Source: Hyalangium gracile (GTDB lineage: Bacteria; Myxococcota; Myxococcia; Myxococcales; Myxococcaceae). From it: a DNA stretch of 64,000 nt. The position numbers and the translations under genes are program-made. Positions 50,924 through 61,372 of the stretch are shown in pieces. The notes under the pieces are model-generated. The model saw only the letters and a list, made by a program, of their open reading frames with translations, did not search any database and was not told the origin of the DNA. The stretch is from positions 248,001 through 312,000 of the forward strand of contig NZ_JAHXBG010000003.1 in assembly GCF_020103725.1 (NCBI RefSeq). Reading direction: 5' to 3'. Position 1 is the stretch's first letter; each line of letters opens with the position of its first letter.

Positions 50924-52240
50924 TCAGTACAGCTTGCGCAGGCGGGCGGCGAAGAAGCCATCCCAGCCCTCGGGCCCCGGCAGGGTGCGCAGCGAGGCCT
51001 GGTTCATGGGCAGCTTCACCCCGGGCAGCACCGGCGGCTCCGCCGTCCACTCGGGGTGGCTGCGCAGGAACATCTCCACCTGGTCCTGCCCCTCCTGCGG
51101 CTCCGTGGTGCACACGGCGTACACCAGCAGCCCTCCAGGCGGCACCACCTCCTGGCAGTTCTCCAGGATGCGGCGCTGGAGCGAGGCCAGCCGGCCGATG
51201 TCCTCCTCCTTGCGGCGGTAGCGCAGCTCCGGGTGGCGCCGCAGCGTGCCCAGCCCGGAGCACGGCGCGTCCACCAGCACCGCGTGGAACTCGCCCAGGT
51301 CCTCCGGCAGCGGCACCGTGGCGTCATGCGCCACCGCCCGCAGCCGCCCGGTGAGCCCCAGCCGCTTCGCCTCGGCCTCGATCTTCGGCAGCTTGTTGGC
51401 GTGCAGGTCCGTGGCCACCACCTCGTGCGCCTCGGCCAGGTGGCACGCCTTGCCGCCCGGCGCCGCGCAGGCGTCCAGCACGCGCGCCGTCTCCGGGATC
51501 GCTCCGTACACGCCCACCAGCTGCGCCGCCTCGTCCTGCACCTGCCAGAGCCCCTCGGAGTAGCCGTACACCTCCTCGAGGCGCCCCACCGGCGGAAGGA
51601 TGATGCCCACCGGGGACATCGCCGTGGGCTGGGCGTCCAGCCCCACCTCGCGCAGCTGCGTCAGCAGGGCCTCGCGCGTCACCTTCGACGTGTTGGCGCG
51701 CACGACGATGGGCGGCGTCTGGTTGTCCGCCACGAGCATCGCCTCGGCGCGCTCGCGGCCGAAGTGGCGCAGCCACCGCTCCACCAGCCAGCGGGGGTGG
51801 CTCTCCCGGACGGAGAGGTACTCGGCGACGTCGCTCTCCGGCGGCAGCGGCTGGCCCGGCAGCTCCGCCAGCTTGCGCAGGATGGCGTTGACGAAGCCCG
51901 CCGCGCGCGCGACGCCCAGGTCCTTGAGGGCCTGCACCGTCTCGGCCACGGCCGCCCGGGCGGGCACCCGCGTGTGGAAGAGCTGGTAGGCCCCCACCCG
52001 CAGGGCGGCGAGCACCCGGTCCTCCATGGAGTCCAGCTTCCGGTCCGCGAACCGGGAGATGGCGTAGTCCAGCGAGAGCTGCCGCCGCGCGGCGCCGTAG
52101 GCCAGCTCCGTGGCGAGCGCCGTGTCGCGGGGATCCTTCAGCGGCCTCTCCGACAGCATCGTGTCGAGGACGACGTTGAGGTAGGCCTCGGTGGCGCGCA
52201 CGCGCGCGAGCACCTGGATGGCGAGGGCTCGAGCGCTCAT
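50924..52240 (-). CDS. rsmB: 16S rRNA (cytosine-C5)-methyltransferase RsmB
   Basis: A 438-residue enzyme that methylates C967 of 16S rRNA using SAM. The N-terminal NusB-like helical domain (about 1-130) is followed by the Rossmann methyltransferase: VLDACAAPGGKACHL binds SAM, and DAPCSGLGTLRRHP and VYAVCTTEP supply the two catalytic Cys residues. Length and domain order are standard. Its ATG overlaps the stop of the AroQ-like gene as ATGA, so it is co-translated in an fmt / AroQ-like / rsmB operon. Confidence 0.94.
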   Translation of the reverse strand: MSARALAIQVLARVRATEAYLNVVLDTMLSERPLKDPRDTALATELAYGAARRQLSLDYAISRFADRKLDSMEDRVLAALRVGAYQLFHTRVPARAAVAETVQALKDLGVARAAGFVNAILRKLAELPGQPLPPESDVAEYLSVRESHPRWLVERWLRHFGRERAEAMLVADNQTPPIVVRANTSKVTREALLTQLREVGLDAQPTAMSPVGIILPPVGRLEEVYGYSEGLWQVQDEAAQLVGVYGAIPETARVLDACAAPGGKACHLAEAHEVVATDLHANKLPKIEAEAKRLGLTGRLRAVAHDATVPLPEDLGEFHAVLVDAPCSGLGTLRRHPELRYRRKEEDIGRLASLQRRILENCQEVVPPGGLLVYAVCTTEPQEGQDQVEMFLRSHPEWTAEPPVLPGVKLPMNQASLRTLPGPEGWDGFFAARLRKLY

Positions 52241-53169
52241 CCTTCGAGCTGGGTCATCATGTCCACCAGCTGCTCATCCGTGAGGCGGCTCGCGGGCAGG
52301 GTGGAGAGGGTGAGGGTCTGCAGGCTGTCCTCGAGCATGTCCCGGTAGCCGCTCTCGGCGGGAGCACCTCGCTGCACCTCCAGGTACTGCGTGCGCGCCC
52401 AGGTGGCCAGCCCGCTCGGGGTCAGCTTGCCGGAGAGCCGGTCGGCGATCTTCTGGCGGACCAGCTCGCGGGAGAGCAGGTTGGCCGCGGGCGTCTCCTT
52501 CGAGCCGCGCCCCAGGGTCTTCTCGCCCTTGGCGGGCTTGTCTGCCGCCTGGGACTTGCGGCCCAGCGTCTTGGCCACCCCGCCCGCCTCCGCCGTGCGT
52601 GCCAAGGCCCGGGCGGGCGCGACCACCAGCCCGTCCGACTTGCGCCCCAGCGTCTTGGAGGGAGCCTGCTCCTCGGGCTCGTCGGAGGCGTCCGCCTTGC
52701 GGCCGATCGTCTTCGCCTTCCCAGGCGCCGAGGCCTTCGCGCGCTCGCGGCCGGAGGCGGCCTCGCCCTGGGCGAGGCGATCGATCGCCTGGAGGTAGGC
52801 GTCGAAGCCCTTGCCGGAGAGCTGCGCCTGGCACACGTCCTTCAGCACGGACTGCTTCGCGCGCGCGCCGTCCAGGTGGACCTCGATGGCGGGCACGCCC
52901 ACGGCCTCGAGGGCATCCCTCAGCGCGTACGAGCCGAAGAGCCCCGCGGGGTTCACCACCACGCCGGCGATGTTCCGCCGCTCGGCCTGGAGGGTGTCGA
53001 TGAGCACGCCCTCGTGGTTGGACTGGACGATCTTCAGCTCGAGGCCGTGGCTGGAGGCCCGGGCGCGAAGCGCGCTGTCGAGGTCCTCGAACCGTCCGCC
53101 CGTGGTGCCCTCCCGCTCCCCGAGCAGGTTCAGGTTCGGCCCGTGCAGCACCAGCAGTCTCATCGCCAT
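52237..53169 (-). CDS. AroQ-fold protein lacking dehydroquinase active site, with KTLGRK repeats
   Basis: A 310-residue protein. Residues 4-133 follow type II 3-dehydroquinate dehydratase: LVLHGPNLNLLGERE, VVVNPAGLFGSYALRDAL and AIEVHLDG. The catalytic Tyr of the usual REPxxYG segment is absent (REGTTGG), and the His of the THTS loop is replaced (GLFGSYAL), while Asn 73 and His 98 remain. Dehydroquinase activity is therefore unlikely. A linker carries four KT(I/L)GR(K/G) motifs (153-223), then a helical C-terminal domain. ATG 53169 follows GGAGAA. Translational coupling to rsmB and placement after fmt suggest a role near translation or RNA, which is inference. Confidence 0.85.
   Translation of the reverse strand: MAMRLLVLHGPNLNLLGEREGTTGGRFEDLDSALRARASSHGLELKIVQSNHEGVLIDTLQAERRNIAGVVVNPAGLFGSYALRDALEAVGVPAIEVHLDGARAKQSVLKDVCQAQLSGKGFDAYLQAIDRLAQGEAASGRERAKASAPGKAKTIGRKADASDEPEEQAPSKTLGRKSDGLVVAPARALARTAEAGGVAKTLGRKSQAADKPAKGEKTLGRGSKETPAANLLSRELVRQKIADRLSGKLTPSGLATWARTQYLEVQRGAPAESGYRDMLEDSLQTLTLSTLPASRLTDEQLVDMMTQLEG
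52501..52713 (-). repeat. Four dispersed KTLGRK-type linker motifs
   Basis: KTIGRK (153), KTLGRKS (172), KTLGRKS (200) and KTLGRGS (217) recur every 17-28 residues in an otherwise Ala/Glu-rich linker. Regular recurrence suggests binding sites for one partner or for phosphorylation of Thr/Ser. Confidence 0.85.
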
Positions 53170-53201: not shown

Positions 53202-54155
53202 TCAGCCCTTGCTCTCGACCGGAGCCGAGAACGGCTGGCTCCCCGGCGCCAGCTTATGGCCGGAGAGGAAATCGCCGGCGCTCATCACCCGCCTGCCCTC
53301 CGGCTGGACGTCCAGGAGCACGAGCGAGCCCTCGCCACAAGCCACCTCGAGCCCACCCGGGCCCGCCGCCAGGATGGAGCCAGGAGCTCCCCGCCCGGTG
53401 CCCAGCTTCGTCCGGTGCACCTTGAGCCGCGTCCCATTGAGCCCGGTGTAGGCGCCGGGCCAGGGCGTGAAGGCGCGCACCCGCCGCTCCAGCTCCGCCG
53501 CGGGGCGGGTGAAGTCCAGCAGCCCGTCCTCCTTCTGGATGATGGGCGCCAGCACCACGCCCTCGGAGGGCTGCGGCACGGGCTTCAGCTCCCCACGCAG
53601 ATAGGCGGGGAGCGACTCGCGGAGGATCTCCCCGCCGAGCCGGGAGAGCTTCTCGTGGAGGCTGGCGCTCGTGTCGTCCGGGGCGATGGGCAGGCGCTTC
53701 ATCGCGATCACCGGTCCGGTGTCGAGCCCCTCGTCCATGCGCATGAGGGCCACGCCCGTCTCGGAGTCCCCGTGGGCGATGGCCCACTGGATGGGAGCGG
53801 CGCCGCGGAAGCGCGGCAGCAGCGAGGCGTGCACGTTGACGCTGCCGTGGGGCGCCACCTCCAGCACGTCCTTGGGGAGGATCTTCCCGTAAGCCGTCAC
53901 CACGCACACGTCGGGCGACAGCTTGCGCAGCTCCTCGGAGAACGGCGGGGTGCGCAGCTTCTGCGGCTGGAGCACCGTCACGCCGCGCTCGAGCGCCAGC
54001 GCCTTCACCGGGGAGATGGAGATGGCGTTGCCGCGGCCCTTGGGCTTGTCCGGCTGGGTGACGACGGCCACCACATCGCCGATGTCGAAGCAGGCCGAGA
54101 GCGACGCCACGGCGAACTCGGGCGTGCCCATGAAGACGATCCGGGGTCTGCTCAT
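53202..54155 (-). CDS. fmt: Methionyl-tRNA formyltransferase
   Basis: A 317-residue enzyme that adds a formyl group from 10-formyl-THF to initiator Met-tRNA. The catalytic domain has VFMGTPEFAV at the start, VTAYGKILP, and the hallmark NVHASLLPRFRGAAPI, which carries the active-site Asn and His, plus MDEGLDTGPV with the Asp. The C-terminal OB-like tRNA-binding domain starts near residue 208. Length is standard. It is the first gene of the operon; the AroQ-like gene follows 32 bases later. def, its usual partner, is not adjacent. Confidence 0.95.
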   Translation of the reverse strand: MSRPRIVFMGTPEFAVASLSACFDIGDVVAVVTQPDKPKGRGNAISISPVKALALERGVTVLQPQKLRTPPFSEELRKLSPDVCVVTAYGKILPKDVLEVAPHGSVNVHASLLPRFRGAAPIQWAIAHGDSETGVALMRMDEGLDTGPVIAMKRLPIAPDDTSASLHEKLSRLGGEILRESLPAYLRGELKPVPQPSEGVVLAPIIQKEDGLLDFTRPAAELERRVRAFTPWPGAYTGLNGTRLKVHRTKLGTGRGAPGSILAAGPGGLEVACGEGSLVLLDVQPEGRRVMSAGDFLSGHKLAPGSQPFSAPVESKG

Positions 54156-57036: not shown

Positions 57037-57330
57037 TCTTCCAGGGAGCACACCACGCCTTCCATGCTGATGCCGAAGTGGTGGCCCATTCGCGCAGCAC
57101 GTCGTCGACGATCGCGACGGCGGTGTCGGCGTGCTTCCAGAGCATGATGCCCACTGAAATCCGCGACGACTCGTAGTCATCTTGACTGAGATCGGCGCAG
57201 GGTCCGACTTTGAGCCCGTTCGGTTCGATGCCTCGTTCCTTCAGGGCGCGAGCAGCGGCCGAACGAAGTGGCGCATGGGCTCCGCTATACCCCCTGATAT
57301 ACCCCCTGAGCGCTGGCGCCCCGAATCATG
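57033..57330 (-). pseudogene. Frameshifted C-terminal gene remnant
   Basis: Minus-strand sequence from 57330 reads as plausible protein without stops (ALKERGIEPNGLKVGPCADL, then WKHADTAVAIVDDVLREW). It then appears to shift frame near 57085 and continue HHFGISMEGVVCSLED before a stop at 57033. No start codon or 5' part is present and an in-frame stop precedes it. Base use is less GC-rich than flanking genes. The original family is not recognised. The 391-base gap between 57036 and 57428 otherwise holds only a short ATACCCCCTGA direct repeat (57287-57309). Confidence 0.45.
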
Positions 57331-57427
57331 GTTGCGCCGCCCGCGCATGCAACACTCACGCGCGGAGGACTTCCCTCTTCCAGTAGAATGCTCCTCCCTG
57401 CTCCCTCACATGCCGCACGCTCCTCCC

Positions 57428-60400
57428 ATGTCCGCCGCGCCAGCTCCCGGCACCCTCCTGGCAAGCCGCTTCCTGATCCAACGACTGGCGGGCCGCGGCG
57501 GCATGGGCTCCGTCTACCGAGCCGTGGACACCACGAACGAGCACGTCGTGGCCCTCAAGCTGGTGCATGCGGTGGGGGACTCCGAGACGGCGCGGCGCTT
57601 CACGCGGGAGGCCCAGCTGCTCTCCGAGCTGCGCCACCCCCGGATCGTCTCCTACGTGGCCCACGGCGTCACCGAGGAGGGTCAGCCCTTCCTCGCCATG
57701 GAGTGGCTGGAGGGTGAGGACCTGGCCCACCGGCTGGCGCATCAGCCCTTGAGCCTCTCGGAGTCGCTGCTGCTGGTGCGCTGTGTCGCCGAGGGCCTCG
57801 CCGCCGCGCACGCGCGGGGCATCGTCCACCGCGACATCAAGCCCTCCAACCTCTTCCTGCGCGGCGGCAGGATCGAGGACGTGGTGGTGCTGGACTTCGG
57901 GCTGGCCCGACTGGTGGCCTCCTCGCAGGCGCTCACCGGCAGCTCCACGGTGCTGGGCACTCCCGGGTACATGGCGCCCGAGCAGGCCTCCAGCCAGGAG
58001 GACATCACCCCGGGCGCGGACATCTTCTCGCTGGGGTGCGTGCTGTATCAGTGCCTCACGGGCAAGGCCCCGTTCCAGGCCCCGCACATGGCCGCGGTGC
58101 TGGCCAAGATCCTCTTCTCGGAGCCCGCGCGGCTGCGCACGCTGCGGCCCGAGCTGCCCGCCTCGCTGCAGGGCCTGCTGGATCGGATGCTGGCCAAGGC
58201 TCCCGCGCGTCGGCTCGCGGATGGCACGCAGCTGCTGCCCGCGGTGGAGGCGCTGGAGACCCTGGCCGAGGTCCCCGCCCCGGGCCATCCCCACACGCCA
58301 CAGCCCACCAGCCTGGCGCACGCCGAGCAGCACCTGGTGAGCGTGCTGCTGGCCACGCCCTACGGAGCCGCCGCGAACGCGCCCACGCTCAACGCCGAGG
58401 ACGCGGAGCACGCCCGCCAGCGGCAGGGCCCGTTGCTGCAGGAGCTTCGGGCGAACGGCGCGCGTGCCGCATTGCTGGCCGACGGCTCGCTTCTGGCCAC
58501 CTTCCTGGTGGAGCGCGGCACCGCCACCGATCAGGCCGTCCTGGCCGCGCGCTGTGCCCTGACCGTCAAGGAGCGGTGGCCGGACAGCCTCGTGGTCCTC
58601 GCCACCGGCCTGACGCTCCGAGGCGAGGCGCTGCCCGTCGGGGAGGTGATGGACCGGGCCGGCGAGTTCCTCCGGAAGATGGAGCGGGAGCACGCCGTCG
58701 CCTCCCAGGTGGTGCTGGACACCACCACCGCGGGGCTGCTGGGCCCCCGCTTCCAGGTCGACAAGACGCCCTCCGGAGCCATCCAGCTGCGCGGCGAGCT
58801 GCTGAGCGTGGATGAGTCCCGCCCGCTGCTGGGCCGCCCCACCCCCTGCGTGGGCCGCGAGCAGGAGCTGGCCATGCTGGAGATGGCCTTCCACTCCTGC
58901 GTGGAGGACACCTCGGCGCGCGCCGTGCTGGTCACCGCGCCCCCGGGCACCGGCAAGTCCCGCCTGCGTCACGAGTTCCTCCGCCGCCTGGAGCACCGCG
59001 CGCAGCCGATGCTCGTGATGTTCGGCCGGGGCGATCCGATGAACGCGGGCTCCGCCTATGGGTTGATGGGCGAGGCGGTGCGCCGGCTGTGTGGCGTCCT
59101 CAACGGCGAGCCGCTGGAGTGCCGGCGACAGAAGCTGGCGCGGCGCGTCTCCCAGCACCTCGCCGCCGAGGAGGTGAAGGACACCGTCGAGTTCCTCGGC
59201 GAGCTGTGCGGCGTGGCCTTCCCCCTGGAGGACAGCCCCAAGCTGCGCGCGGCGCGCGAGGATCCGCGGCTGATGAGCGCCCAGGTGACACGGGCCATGG
59301 TCACCTTCCTCCGGGCCGAGTTGTCCCAGGGCCCGGTGCTGCTGGTCCTGGAGGACCTGCACTGGAGCGACAGCTTCACCGTGAAGCTGGTGGACGAGGT
59401 GCTGCGCGAGCTGACCGAGCAGCCGCTCCTGGTGCTGGCGCTGGCCCGCCCCGAGGTCCGGGAGCTGTTCCCGGGCCTCTGGTCCCAGCACCTCCAGGAG
59501 GTGACGCTGCGCGGCCTGAGCCAGAAGGCCTGCACCCGGCTCGTCCACGAGGTGCTCGGCCCCCAGGTGCGGCCGGCCGTGGTGGCTCGCCTGGTGGAGC
59601 AGGCCGCCGGCAACGCCCTCTTCCTGGAGGAGCTCATCCGCAACGAGGCCGAGGGACACGGCGAGGAGACTCCGGGCACGGTGCTCGCCATGCTCCAGTC
59701 CCGGCTCCAGCGTCTGGAGCGCGGCCCCCGGCGGGTGCTGCTGGCCGCCAGCATCTTCGGCCGCTCCTTCTGGCCCCGAGGCGTGCGGACGCTCCTGGAG
59801 GAGGAGATCTCCTCCGACGAGCTGGAGCACGGCCTGCGGAGCCTGCGAGAGCTGGAGATGGTGCAGCCCCAGGCCGGCAGCCGCTTCCCCGGAGAGACCG
59901 AGTACCGCTTCCGCCATGCGCTGGTGAGGGACGCGGCCTACGGCCTGGTGCCCGACAACCTCAAGCCCCTGGGCCACCAGCGGGCCGGGGCGTGGCTGGA
60001 GCAGGCGGGTGAGCAGGACGCGTGGGTGCTGGCGGAGCACTATCAGCTCGGGAAGAAGAAGGAGCGGGCGGTGCACTTCTTCACCCGCGCGGGCGAGCGG
60101 CTCTACGAGCAGCAGGACATCGCGGGCGCGCAGCGGTGCGTGCAGGCCGCCCTGGCGTGCGAGCCCACCGGCCCGGCGCTGGCGGAGCTGCGGGCTCTCG
60201 AGGTGATGATCAGCTTCTGGCAGGAGGACTTCGAGCACGGCTTCAGCGTGGGCACCAAGGTCCAGTCCCAGCTCCTCCGGGGCAGCGCTCCGTGGGCCCG
60301 GGTGACGGGGGCGATGATCCTCATGGGCGCCCAGTGCGGCCGGCACGCGGATGTGGCGCAGTTGGGTCAGCTCCTGCTGAGCACCAACCCCGCCCCCGAG

Positions 60401-61372
60401 GCCATCCCCTTCTATGTGGAGACGGCCGCCATCATGACGGCCATCAACAGCTGGTGCGGGCTGAGGGCTCCCGCCCTGCTCGTCCTGGAGCGGCTGAACG
60501 CGGTCGGGGCGGACATCCTGTCGAGGGATCCCGGCGCGCGGGGGTGGACCTGGTGCGGCAGGGCCTATCCCCGCCACTACCTGCAGCCTCACCCCTGGCA
60601 GGCCTGCATCGCCGGCGAGGAGGGGGTGAAGGCCTTCCGCGAGGTGAACTCGGAGCGCAACCGCACGGCGCCTCAGGCCATCTGGGGGATGGCGCTGGAG
60701 GCCCTCGGGGAAGGGGCTCGCGCCATCGAGGTCCTCCGGGACGCGGCGGAGACGTCCCGGCGGGCCGGCCAGACATATGCGGCGGCGGCCACGCAGATGC
60801 AGCTGCTGTACGTGCTGTCCAACAGCCCCGAGCCGACGCACCGCGAGGAGTCTCGCGAGCTGGCGCGCCGGGTGGCGGACGAGGCGAATGGCGACATGCT
60901 CCACCTGGGCATCTCCCAGCTCGCGCTGGCACGGGCAGCGGGGGCCGAGGGTCGGCACGCGGAGGCGGAGGCCCATGCCCGCAGGGCGTGCGAGCAGATC
61001 GGCGGGTTCCTGGCCTTCCAGCTCGTCGCGCGCACGTTCCTGTCGTCGACGCTGCGAGCCCAGGGGCGCATGCAGGAGGCGCGGGCGGAGGCGGCGGCAG
61101 GCGTACAGGTGCTGGAGCAGATCGGCGGCGCGGGCGCGGGCTCCGTGGGCGCGTGGCTGGCGCTGGCGGAGGCCTGCTTCGCGATGGGTGACGACACCGA
61201 AGGGAAGCGTACCCTGCGGCATGCCGTGCACTGCGTGAGACAGCGCAGCCTCGACATCCCGGAAGCCATGGCCCGCGCGCGCTTCTGGCTGTATGTCCCG
61301 GAGAATGCCCGGACCCTGGAGCTGGCGCGCCAGCGCCTCGAGCCGGACTGGGAGCTCGCCCCCCCTCCGTAG
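57428..61372 (+). CDS. Ser/Thr kinase fused to degenerate cyclase, AAA ATPase and TPR domains
   Basis: A 1314-residue signalling protein. The kinase domain spans about residues 12-280: GRGGMGSVY, Lys 44 in VALKLV, HRDIKPSN with Asp 136, DFGLAR with Asp 156 and APEQ, all intact. Residues about 300-460 resemble a class III nucleotide-cyclase domain (DGSLLATF, LPVGEVMDRAGEF) without the metal-binding Asp residues, so it is probably a sensor or docking unit. An AAA/STAND ATPase follows (APPGTGKS with Lys 510; VLEDLHWSD near 640), then TPR-like helices to the end. It is related to kinase/cyclase fusion regulators. Start ATG 57428 is chosen; 57410 is also in frame. No target gene is adjacent. Confidence 0.88.
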   Translation: MSAAPAPGTLLASRFLIQRLAGRGGMGSVYRAVDTTNEHVVALKLVHAVGDSETARRFTREAQLLSELRHPRIVSYVAHGVTEEGQPFLAMEWLEGEDLAHRLAHQPLSLSESLLLVRCVAEGLAAAHARGIVHRDIKPSNLFLRGGRIEDVVVLDFGLARLVASSQALTGSSTVLGTPGYMAPEQASSQEDITPGADIFSLGCVLYQCLTGKAPFQAPHMAAVLAKILFSEPARLRTLRPELPASLQGLLDRMLAKAPARRLADGTQLLPAVEALETLAEVPAPGHPHTPQPTSLAHAEQHLVSVLLATPYGAAANAPTLNAEDAEHARQRQGPLLQELRANGARAALLADGSLLATFLVERGTATDQAVLAARCALTVKERWPDSLVVLATGLTLRGEALPVGEVMDRAGEFLRKMEREHAVASQVVLDTTTAGLLGPRFQVDKTPSGAIQLRGELLSVDESRPLLGRPTPCVGREQELAMLEMAFHSCVEDTSARAVLVTAPPGTGKSRLRHEFLRRLEHRAQPMLVMFGRGDPMNAGSAYGLMGEAVRRLCGVLNGEPLECRRQKLARRVSQHLAAEEVKDTVEFLGELCGVAFPLEDSPKLRAAREDPRLMSAQVTRAMVTFLRAELSQGPVLLVLEDLHWSDSFTVKLVDEVLRELTEQPLLVLALARPEVRELFPGLWSQHLQEVTLRGLSQKACTRLVHEVLGPQVRPAVVARLVEQAAGNALFLEELIRNEAEGHGEETPGTVLAMLQSRLQRLERGPRRVLLAASIFGRSFWPRGVRTLLEEEISSDELEHGLRSLRELEMVQPQAGSRFPGETEYRFRHALVRDAAYGLVPDNLKPLGHQRAGAWLEQAGEQDAWVLAEHYQLGKKKERAVHFFTRAGERLYEQQDIAGAQRCVQAALACEPTGPALAELRALEVMISFWQEDFEHGFSVGTKVQSQLLRGSAPWARVTGAMILMGAQCGRHADVAQLGQLLLSTNPAPEAIPFYVETAAIMTAINSWCGLRAPALLVLERLNAVGADILSRDPGARGWTWCGRAYPRHYLQPHPWQACIAGEEGVKAFREVNSERNRTAPQAIWGMALEALGEGARAIEVLRDAAETSRRAGQTYAAAATQMQLLYVLSNSPEPTHREESRELARRVADEANGDMLHLGISQLALARAAGAEGRHAEAEAHARRACEQIGGFLAFQLVARTFLSSTLRAQGRMQEARAEAAAGVQVLEQIGGAGAGSVGAWLALAEACFAMGDDTEGKRTLRHAVHCVRQRSLDIPEAMARARFWLYVPENARTLELARQRLEPDWELAPPP

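Follow-up and report, generated by a model that had tools for sequence, protein, structure and literature searches.

The closest described relative of the protein considered here is the type II 3-dehydroquinate dehydratase AroQ (PF01220, TIGR01088), with which it has its fold and ancestry in common. Type II enzymes are usually dodecamers, as stated in excerpts of PMC10772564, and their active-site positions are given here in M. tuberculosis numbering after the list in an excerpt of PMC6011038. A second point of comparison is provided by the bifunctional AroD-AroE proteins, such as the plant DHQD-SDH enzyme 2gpt and the members of NCBIfam PRK09310. In Candida albicans, according to excerpts of PMC9074039, the type I DHQase domain of Aro1 is inactive by active-site substitutions and the type II enzyme Dqd1 can compensate.

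The window, that is, the whole 64,000-nucleotide stretch of Hyalangium gracile DNA analysed here, contains a gene that we call pseudo-AroQ (52237..53169, minus strand; start ATG at 53169, stop TGA at 52239-52237). The encoded protein of 310 aa combines a type II dehydroquinase-fold pseudoenzyme with a linker and a C-terminal domain, and it is about 175 residues longer than AroQ because of these two additions. All further features mentioned also lie on the minus strand. The AroQ-fold domain comprises residues 1-134 (52768..53169), as supported by the Pfam PF01220 match at residues 5-132, the AlphaFold model and the active-site table; it is followed by a linker predicted to be disordered (residues 135-231, 52477..52767) and by a C-terminal four-helix domain (residues 232-310, 52240..52476). 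Unlike aroQ, the gene is located between fmt (methionyl-tRNA formyltransferase, 53202..54155), which lies 32 bp upstream, and rsmB (16S rRNA C967 methyltransferase, 50924..52240), with which it has the 4 bp ATGA in common; both the overlap and the position after fmt agree with the preliminary description of this DNA.

The situation resembles that of C. albicans Aro1, as far as the excerpts describe it, in that a dehydroquinase domain has active-site substitutions and an enzyme of the other type is able to supply the step. It is, however, a mirror image, since in the present case the type II domain is the dead one and the enzyme that appears to work is of type I; furthermore, inactivity was measured for Aro1, whereas the window case is known from sequence and also involves a gained linker, a gained domain and a new neighbourhood. 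The family likewise resembles pseudoenzymes in general, as covered in excerpts of PMC5106787 and PMC10211241, in that the fold is kept, catalytic residues are lost and the proteins are conserved under selection.

Active-site losses in the AroQ-like domain

Residues 5-132 of the window protein match the Pfam DHquinase_II model with an E-value of 2.6e-33 and 115.1 bits (cut-off 23.3), whereas the score against the NCBIfam aroQ equivalog TIGR01088 is 100.7 bits, under the cut-off of 169.85. The AlphaFold model keeps the AroQ fold and matches type II dehydroquinases, and the protein possesses the LVLHGPNLNLLG N-terminal signature and a QSNHEG motif. In the alignment with type II enzymes it retains Asn12, the essential Arg19, Asn75, Asp88 and the proton donor His101, but lacks the catalytic Tyr24, His81 of the THTS loop, Ser103, Arg108 and Arg112. 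The same pattern had been read from the letters alone, namely a kept signature start with several ligand positions and the loss of the catalytic Tyr and the THTS-loop His, and the outcome of the alignment favours a pseudoenzyme. Since five of these positions are still present, the window copy is less eroded than most. Among the 49 family orthologues (the window copy included), the catalytic Tyr is found in none, compared with nine out of nine canonical copies. Arg19 is kept in 29 and Arg108 in four orthologues, and the better-retained positions are Asn12 (37/49) and Asn75 (34/49).

The residues retained by the window copy would suit a ligand sensor, whose dead pocket would bind dehydroquinate or another shikimate intermediate and report flux to the adjoining translation genes. 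A precedent for such a sensor is the fungal regulator QUTR, which is built from shikimate-pathway enzyme domains. We nevertheless consider this reading quite unlikely, as the binding positions are poorly kept in the orthologues: His81 is present in three of the 49, His101 in ten, Ser or Thr at position 103 in four and Arg112 in 18. Moreover, the column of the lid Tyr is a gap in 21/49, and the entire lid loop is gone in all four of the remaining genomes that the sample of 58 contains from the same genus (G015, G030, G038 and G046).

Candidate enzymes for the dehydratase step

With Pfam, neither another AroQ nor a type I enzyme was detected in the genome to which the window belongs, and the first family searches gave the impression that pseudo-AroQ was the sole dehydroquinase. 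This was ruled out by the aro operon, which encodes a divergent AroD-AroE fusion of 415 aa (G000:C15:193327-194574, outside the window). In hhalign, type I enzymes are aligned to the N-terminal domain of the fusion with a probability of 96.1 and an E-value of 3.2e-9; this domain matches nine positions of E. coli AroD (E46, R48, D50, R82, S141, H143, K170, R213 and Q236), and the fusion profile spans the DHQD-SDH junction of 2gpt with an identical domain order. In contrast to the known bifunctional enzymes, its type I domain is divergent: the type I family model PF01487 has no match in any of the 58 family genomes (0/58), nor in the fusion protein itself. Glu86 of E. coli AroD, a residue with a catalytic role, has no partner in the alignment with this domain, and no type I enzyme was found in the PDB with the profile of the AroD-like domain alone. 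The type I assignment is thus based on the alignment of profiles, the junction between the two domains, the conserved residues and the place of the gene in the operon.

The AroD-like domain was detected in 52 out of 58 family genomes, in a search that scored a part of the first-look candidates, at most 54 per genome. Among the 49 genomes with the pseudoenzyme, 45 have the AroD-AroE fusion, three have an intact AroQ encoded in the operon, and one (G009) has neither; in G009 no substitute dehydratase was found, and aroC was likewise not found. It appears, therefore, that the fusion, or a separate operonic AroQ in three sampled genomes, is available for the dehydratase step, and the candidate for the missing dehydratase is a fusion that Pfam does not recognise. 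The preliminary description had tied its reading to another dehydroquinase being encoded in the genome; the divergent fusion was found when this was searched for, so that the reading was not refuted. With the mechanism residues lost and the divergent AroD-like domain of the fusion encoded elsewhere in the genome, the early call of a pseudoenzyme is strongly supported. By the same reading, Myxococcus xanthus and its relatives have an aroQ-like gene that is probably not a dehydratase gene.

This distribution bears on a further alternative, in which pseudo-AroQ regulates the real dehydratase or another shikimate enzyme. Dead paralogues able to activate live partners are a general precedent, as described in excerpts of PMC5201418, and the pseudoenzyme co-occurs with the fusion in 45 of the 49 genomes and with an operonic intact AroQ in three. 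In the same 45 genomes, however, the enzyme presumed to be live has an unrelated fold, the pseudo-AroQ gene is located beside fmt and rsmB rather than in the aro operon, and three genomes (G020, G032 and G041) possess aroC and the fusion without any match to PF01220 or to the C-terminal domain, although the G032 assembly is split into about 1260 contigs and that of G041 has a completeness of 88%. A regulatory partner of this kind is improbable in our estimate. A UbiE-like gene was also observed in the aro operon.

Repeated linker motif and C-terminal domain

The linker has pLDDT values below 50 at residues 139-228 of the AlphaFold model, and its mean pairwise identity over 47 of the 49 orthologues (G021 and G048 being omitted) is 34%, whereas the two domains reach 51% and 55%. 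It carries the four KTLGRK-type motifs first noticed in the translation, namely KTIGRK (52696..52713), KTLGRK (52639..52656), KTLGRK (52555..52572) and KTLGRG (52504..52521), the last of which contains K217 and G220. Their conservation, which the preliminary description had proposed as a check, is borne out by the orthologues: 118 occurrences were counted in 46 linkers against 0.53 expected by shuffling, and 45 of the 46 contain at least one. This count covers 46 of the 49 linkers, as the pattern used to delimit the linker did not apply to G013, G025 and G021, and it treats G048 as motif-free, its linker having zero length by the boundaries used. At the nucleotide level, a KT(L/I/M)GRK pattern that does not include A- or T-ending codons at every position has three matches in the 11.7-Mb genome, all within the pseudo-AroQ gene, and its reversed control has none. 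The shuffling test and the whole-genome pattern search rule out a chance motif or an ordinary low-complexity linker. In the fourth motif, G220 is invariant in alignments A5 and A7, and K217 is invariant in A7 and almost so in A5; the structure alignments comprise 19 (A7) and 21 (A8) of 29 loci in addition to the window sequence.

The extra helical domain of the preliminary description corresponds to a C-terminal domain that is ordered in the model, with four predicted helices. It has one match per genome among the candidates scored (at most 28 per genome), and neither Pfam nor NCBIfam assigned the domain of the window protein to a family. With E-values up to 1 admitted, matches to Pfam EAD2 were obtained for three of the 30 C-terminal domains compared, the best with an E-value of 0.00069 and 20.2 bits, under the gathering score of 23.8. 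The predicted fold is weakly similar to the colicin D immunity protein (VIA Z 6.2, rmsd 3.1 over 79 residues; Foldseek E-value 3.0), and similar scores are given by 7dmf, a designed protein (Z 6.3), and by the FRB domain of mTOR (Z 5.9), Z values of about 6 being common among helical bundles according to the tool's own warning. The EAD2 and colicin D matches would suit an alternative in which this domain is a protein-recruiting module of a conflict system, effector-associated or immunity-type, and the AroQ core merely its carrier. No match reaches a trusted threshold, 7dmf and FRB score about equally, and a single match per genome beside fmt and rsmB is unlike a conflict system; we therefore hold this alternative to be about as improbable as a regulatory partner.

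Conservation and proposed role

The 49 family orthologues, one of them in M. xanthus, and three outgroup forms make up 52 pseudoenzymes, which a branch with support 99/97 separates from the other sequences of the tree; FUS_G139 and eleven other rows form long branches in this tree, which leaves out two of 15 loci, L187 (no AroQ extracted) and L189 (100-base stretch). In all 14 orthologue pairs for which it was computed, a subset of the genomes, dN/dS is 0.16-0.46, indicating purifying selection and ruling out recent pseudogene decay. Reading frames are open in 49 loci, of which G021 is cut by the contig end and G048 is short at the N-terminus. The loss of Tyr in all 49 orthologues, the tree branch, purifying selection and the kept linker motif show that pseudo-AroQ, judged from sequence, is a conserved pseudoenzyme family and not a decaying gene. 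Among the literature matches listed, none describes a pseudoenzyme related to type II dehydroquinases or the M. xanthus gene.

The protein is very probably non-catalytic. A still-active dehydroquinase with shifted residues would be compatible with a Pfam DHquinase_II score far over the cut-off and with two sets of intermediate forms. The copies of G024 and G009 are without Tyr, yet Arg19, His81, His101, Arg108 and Arg112 are present; the fusions of G150 and G193 are without the Arg19-Tyr24 pair and possess THTS (His81), EVH (His101), an Arg-rich lid-side stretch and a Tyr located a few residues beyond the lost catalytic one. Against this stand the loss of Tyr in 49/49 orthologues, the absence of the lid loop from many of them and another candidate dehydratase in the genome, and we regard continued activity as very improbable. 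Together with the lid-less same-genus relatives, these forms make intermediate stages visible within a family of pseudoenzymes that have the type II dehydroquinase fold. A decaying relic, retained only for translational coupling to rsmB, would explain a faster evolution than that of fmt and rsmB (identity to the window copy has a median of 51.5%, compared with 77.6% and 79.2%) and the 4-bp rsmB overlap in 28/49 loci, but can hardly be reconciled with the open frames, the dN/dS values and the well-conserved C-terminal domain and linker motif.

The reading that we favour, at a probability of roughly 0.6, is that of a scaffold or adaptor that does not act as a catalyst, whether or not it is linked to translation. 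The proposal of the preliminary description that the fold is reused for binding is, like its tie to translation, a hypothesis. The ancestor would have been a myxobacterial type II dehydroquinase, whose copy at the fmt-rsmB locus carries the motif-bearing linker and the four-helix domain; the catalytic Tyr is gone in every orthologue examined, and in many of them most other catalytic residues as well, often with the lid loop. Type II enzymes are dodecamers composed of four trimers, and an oligomer of the remaining AroQ core may act as a scaffold. It would present disordered arms, in which the short linear motif KT(L/I)GR(K) is repeated, together with the C-terminal helical domain, and multiple display sites would allow one partner to be bound at many places. 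That the scaffold or adaptor is built on such an AroQ-type oligomer has slightly less than an even chance; the intertrimer Arg134 of C. glutamicum is replaced by Leu in the window protein, and oligomerisation is thus an assumption.

Judged by the gene order, the partner may be a factor of translation initiation or of ribosome maturation. In the family, rsmB is located at most 600 bp downstream in 45/49 loci and was not seen in the sequence examined for the other four, and fmt is located at most 200 bp upstream in 39/49 loci, farther in three and not seen in seven. A translation-linked partner, suggested by gene order and spacing, is a tentative and rather doubtful part of the reading. A dehydroquinase-shaped protein beside two protein-synthesis genes has, more broadly, probably taken on a new, non-enzymatic role. 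The most specific form, a dead AroQ dodecamer acting as a multivalent hub of myxobacterial translation that gathers tRNA- or ribosome-modifying factors from the same operon, is unlikely; if true, it would comprise twelve subunits, up to 48 KT(L/I)GR motifs and twelve lineage-specific helical domains. The repeated linker motif and the lineage-specific domain occur in genetically tractable predatory bacteria.

An eroded type II active site between fmt and rsmB

The gene at 52237-53169 (minus strand) encodes a protein of 310 residues and lies between fmt (53202-54155) and rsmB (50924-52240); these coordinates bear out the ATGA overlap with rsmB and the position after fmt reported in the preliminary description. 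The type II dehydroquinase domain (AroQ, PF01220) covers residues 5-132 (Pfam, E 2.6e-33), and the NCBIfam aroQ equivalog score is 100.7 bits, well under the cut-off of 169.85. An AlphaFold model, built from this protein and 19 relatives, predicts an AroQ-like domain whose lid loop (residues 17-24) has low confidence, followed by a disordered linker (139-228) and four C-terminal helices. Type II dehydroquinases account for 49 of the model's 50 best listed PDB matches; the other is a designed particle (9clz).

In the type II mechanism, as outlined in PMC6011038, the tyrosinate is set up by Arg19 with help from Arg108 and Arg112 (M. tuberculosis numbering), His101 serves as the acid, and binding involves Asn12, Asn75, His81 and Arg112, together with Asp88 from a neighbour. 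All PF01220 matches in the 58 genomes of the family sample fall at 58 places across 50 genomes. Nine of these places are canonical AroQ copies, all with Tyr and His81 (9/9), and the remaining 49, one per genome, form the pseudoenzyme group. As claimed earlier for the Hyalangium gracile protein, the catalytic Tyr and the THTS-loop His are lost: Tyr is found in 0/49 pseudoenzymes, its alignment column being a gap in 21, and His81 in 3/49. His101 is retained in 10, Arg19 in 29, Arg108 in 4 and Arg112 in 18 of the 49, whereas structural positions persist: the QSNHEG Glu (49/49), the LHGP Gly (48/49) and the Pro preceding the EV strand (47/49). The lid region is absent in the four other genomes of the same genus from the family sample (G015, G030, G038 and G046), and is probably retained in two found in the phylum sample only (G171 and G187), since their PF01220 match begins at profile position 2.

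A candidate dehydratase in the aro operon

Family searches of the Hyalangium gracile genome returned neither a second type II nor any type I match, and type I domains (PF01487) were found in 0/58 family genomes, compared with aroC in 54/58. A candidate was located from the DNA surrounding aroC, outside the window, where the operon order is DAHP synthase, a UbiE-like gene (by eye), AroK, a 415-aa protein, AroC, AroB and AroA. The 415-aa protein (contig C15, 193327-194574; 8828-10075 of fetched locus L047) is a divergent AroD-AroE fusion. Its C-terminal half is AroE-like, and profile-profile comparison aligns the N-terminal half with type I enzymes (probability 96.1, E 3.2e-9); the E. coli AroD positions matched are E46, R48, D50, R82, S141, H143, K170, R213 and Q236. 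The catalytic Glu86 of E. coli AroD has no partner in this alignment. The joint AroD-AroE profile extends across the point where dehydratase and dehydrogenase meet in the plant bifunctional enzyme. Two results speak against the type I assignment: the AroD-like domain profile alone retrieved no type I structure from the PDB, and a Pfam search of the 415-aa protein did not name the type I domain. The preliminary description had raised the matter of another dehydroquinase in the genome, and sequence comparison points to one, a divergent type I domain fused to AroE in the aro operon.

The AroD-like domain is present in 52/58 family genomes. Three of those without it (G006, G021 and G027) have an intact AroQ near aroC, with aroB between where read, and in the other three (G009, G010 and G043) aroC was likewise not found. 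With these six accounted for, the 49 genomes with a pseudoenzyme comprise 45 with the AroD-AroE fusion, three with an operonic AroQ and one, G009, with neither. Three genomes have aroC and the AroD-AroE fusion, but no match to PF01220 or to the C-terminal domain of the pseudoenzyme (G020, 99% complete; G032, 97%, in about 1260 contigs; G041, 88%). In the phylum sample, ordinary type I enzymes were found in 12/193 genomes and PF01220 in 154/193. Standalone intact AroQ copies were also observed in six genomes with the AroD-AroE fusion (loci L002-L007 of G029, G028, G052, G045, G003 and G037, respectively); in the tree they do not group with the family's operonic AroQ, and they were perhaps acquired separately. 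The operonic AroQ of G006 (L008:1015-1914, minus strand) is intact and continues into an in-frame extension of ~150 aa that resembles a GAF domain by eye; that of G027 (L009:1021-1914, minus strand) is of similar length.

Origin and constraint of the pseudoenzyme

With no more than 28 first-look candidates scored in any genome, the C-terminal domain gave a single match in each of 90/193 phylum genomes. Of these genomes, 87 belong to the window's family and three to other families of the order; a further 8 listed genomes of the window's family had no match. In G150 and G193, from other families of the order, the pseudoenzyme-type fusion likewise lies between fmt and rsmB and retains THTS, EVH and RRRE, the Arg19-Tyr24 pair being absent; in G150, an ordinary AroD adjoins the other aro genes. 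G139, the third genome from outside the window's family, combines an intact operonic AroQ with a badly decayed fusion between fmt and rsmB. Stages are visible in these three genomes. A maximum-likelihood tree built from 75 AroQ domains, 12 rows of which are long branches, places the 52 pseudoenzymes together to one side of a branch supported at 99/97, and one duplication and one take-over would fit this history best. Among the named relatives are Hyalangium versicolor, at 92% over the C-terminal domain, Myxococcus xanthus AM003, and Corallococcus, Pyxidicoccus and Archangium species. A Myxococcus-type pseudo-AroQ is also encoded in BNCN01000002.1 (L164), titled Comamonas sp. KCTC 72670, a record that is probably mislabelled.

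The pseudoenzyme dN/dS ranges from 0.16 to 0.46 in 14 close pairs. Of the 13 pairs having neighbour data, 11 show a higher value for the pseudoenzyme than for any measured neighbour (fmt, rsmB); in the remaining two, fmt is higher. Pseudoenzyme orthologues have a median identity of 51.5% to the window copy, compared with 77.6% for fmt and 79.2% for rsmB. Over 47/49 pseudoenzyme sequences, the AroQ domain averages 51% pairwise identity, the linker 34% and the C-terminal domain 55%. The KTLGRK-type linker motifs described earlier recur in orthologues: 46 linkers contain 118 instances of K(T/S)(L/I/M)G, compared with 0.53 after shuffling, counts that are not independent because the sequences share ancestry; at least one motif is present in 45/46 linkers and at least two in 43/46. 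A KT(L/I/M)GRK codon pattern, covering A- or T-ending codons at some positions but not every one, has three matches in the window's genome, each inside the pseudo-AroQ gene.

The C-terminal domain alone is confidently predicted as a four-helix fold (mean pLDDT 85.4), and its window copy matches no Pfam family. EAD2, described in PMC7159879 as an adaptor recruiting signalling parts in conflict systems, matches 3/30 members of the domain, all under the cut-off. The top structural matches, a designed protein (7dmf, Z 6.3) and the colicin D immunity protein (Z 6.2), as well as the mTOR FRB domain (Z 5.9), are in the range reached by unrelated helical bundles, and a Foldseek search gave no match at E <=0.001.

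Proposed role and nearest parallel

For the pseudoenzyme, the analysis establishes AroQ ancestry, loss of catalytic residues, a second candidate enzyme, conservation and gene order. Its placement beside fmt and rsmB suggests a possible partner in translation. Linkers that vary in sequence while holding short motifs constant are typical of multivalent binding, and the disordered arms of the pseudoenzyme would bear the repeated motifs and the terminal domain for the partner. An AroQ-type oligomer may act as the scaffold for these arms, given that type II enzymes of solved structure form dodecamers composed of four trimers (PMC10772564). The window protein is classed as a pseudoenzyme, a kind of protein already known; no type II dehydroquinase pseudoenzyme is described among the literature matches listed, a scope that leaves out most subscription papers and all preprints. 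The nearest published situation found is its mirror image, Candida albicans Aro1, in which, according to PMC9074039, the type I domain is dead and a type II enzyme is able to cover.

Elsewhere in the window, a large open frame at 57182-61372 (plus strand) resembles a serine/threonine kinase at its N-terminus and contains an ATPase-like region, both recognized by eye.
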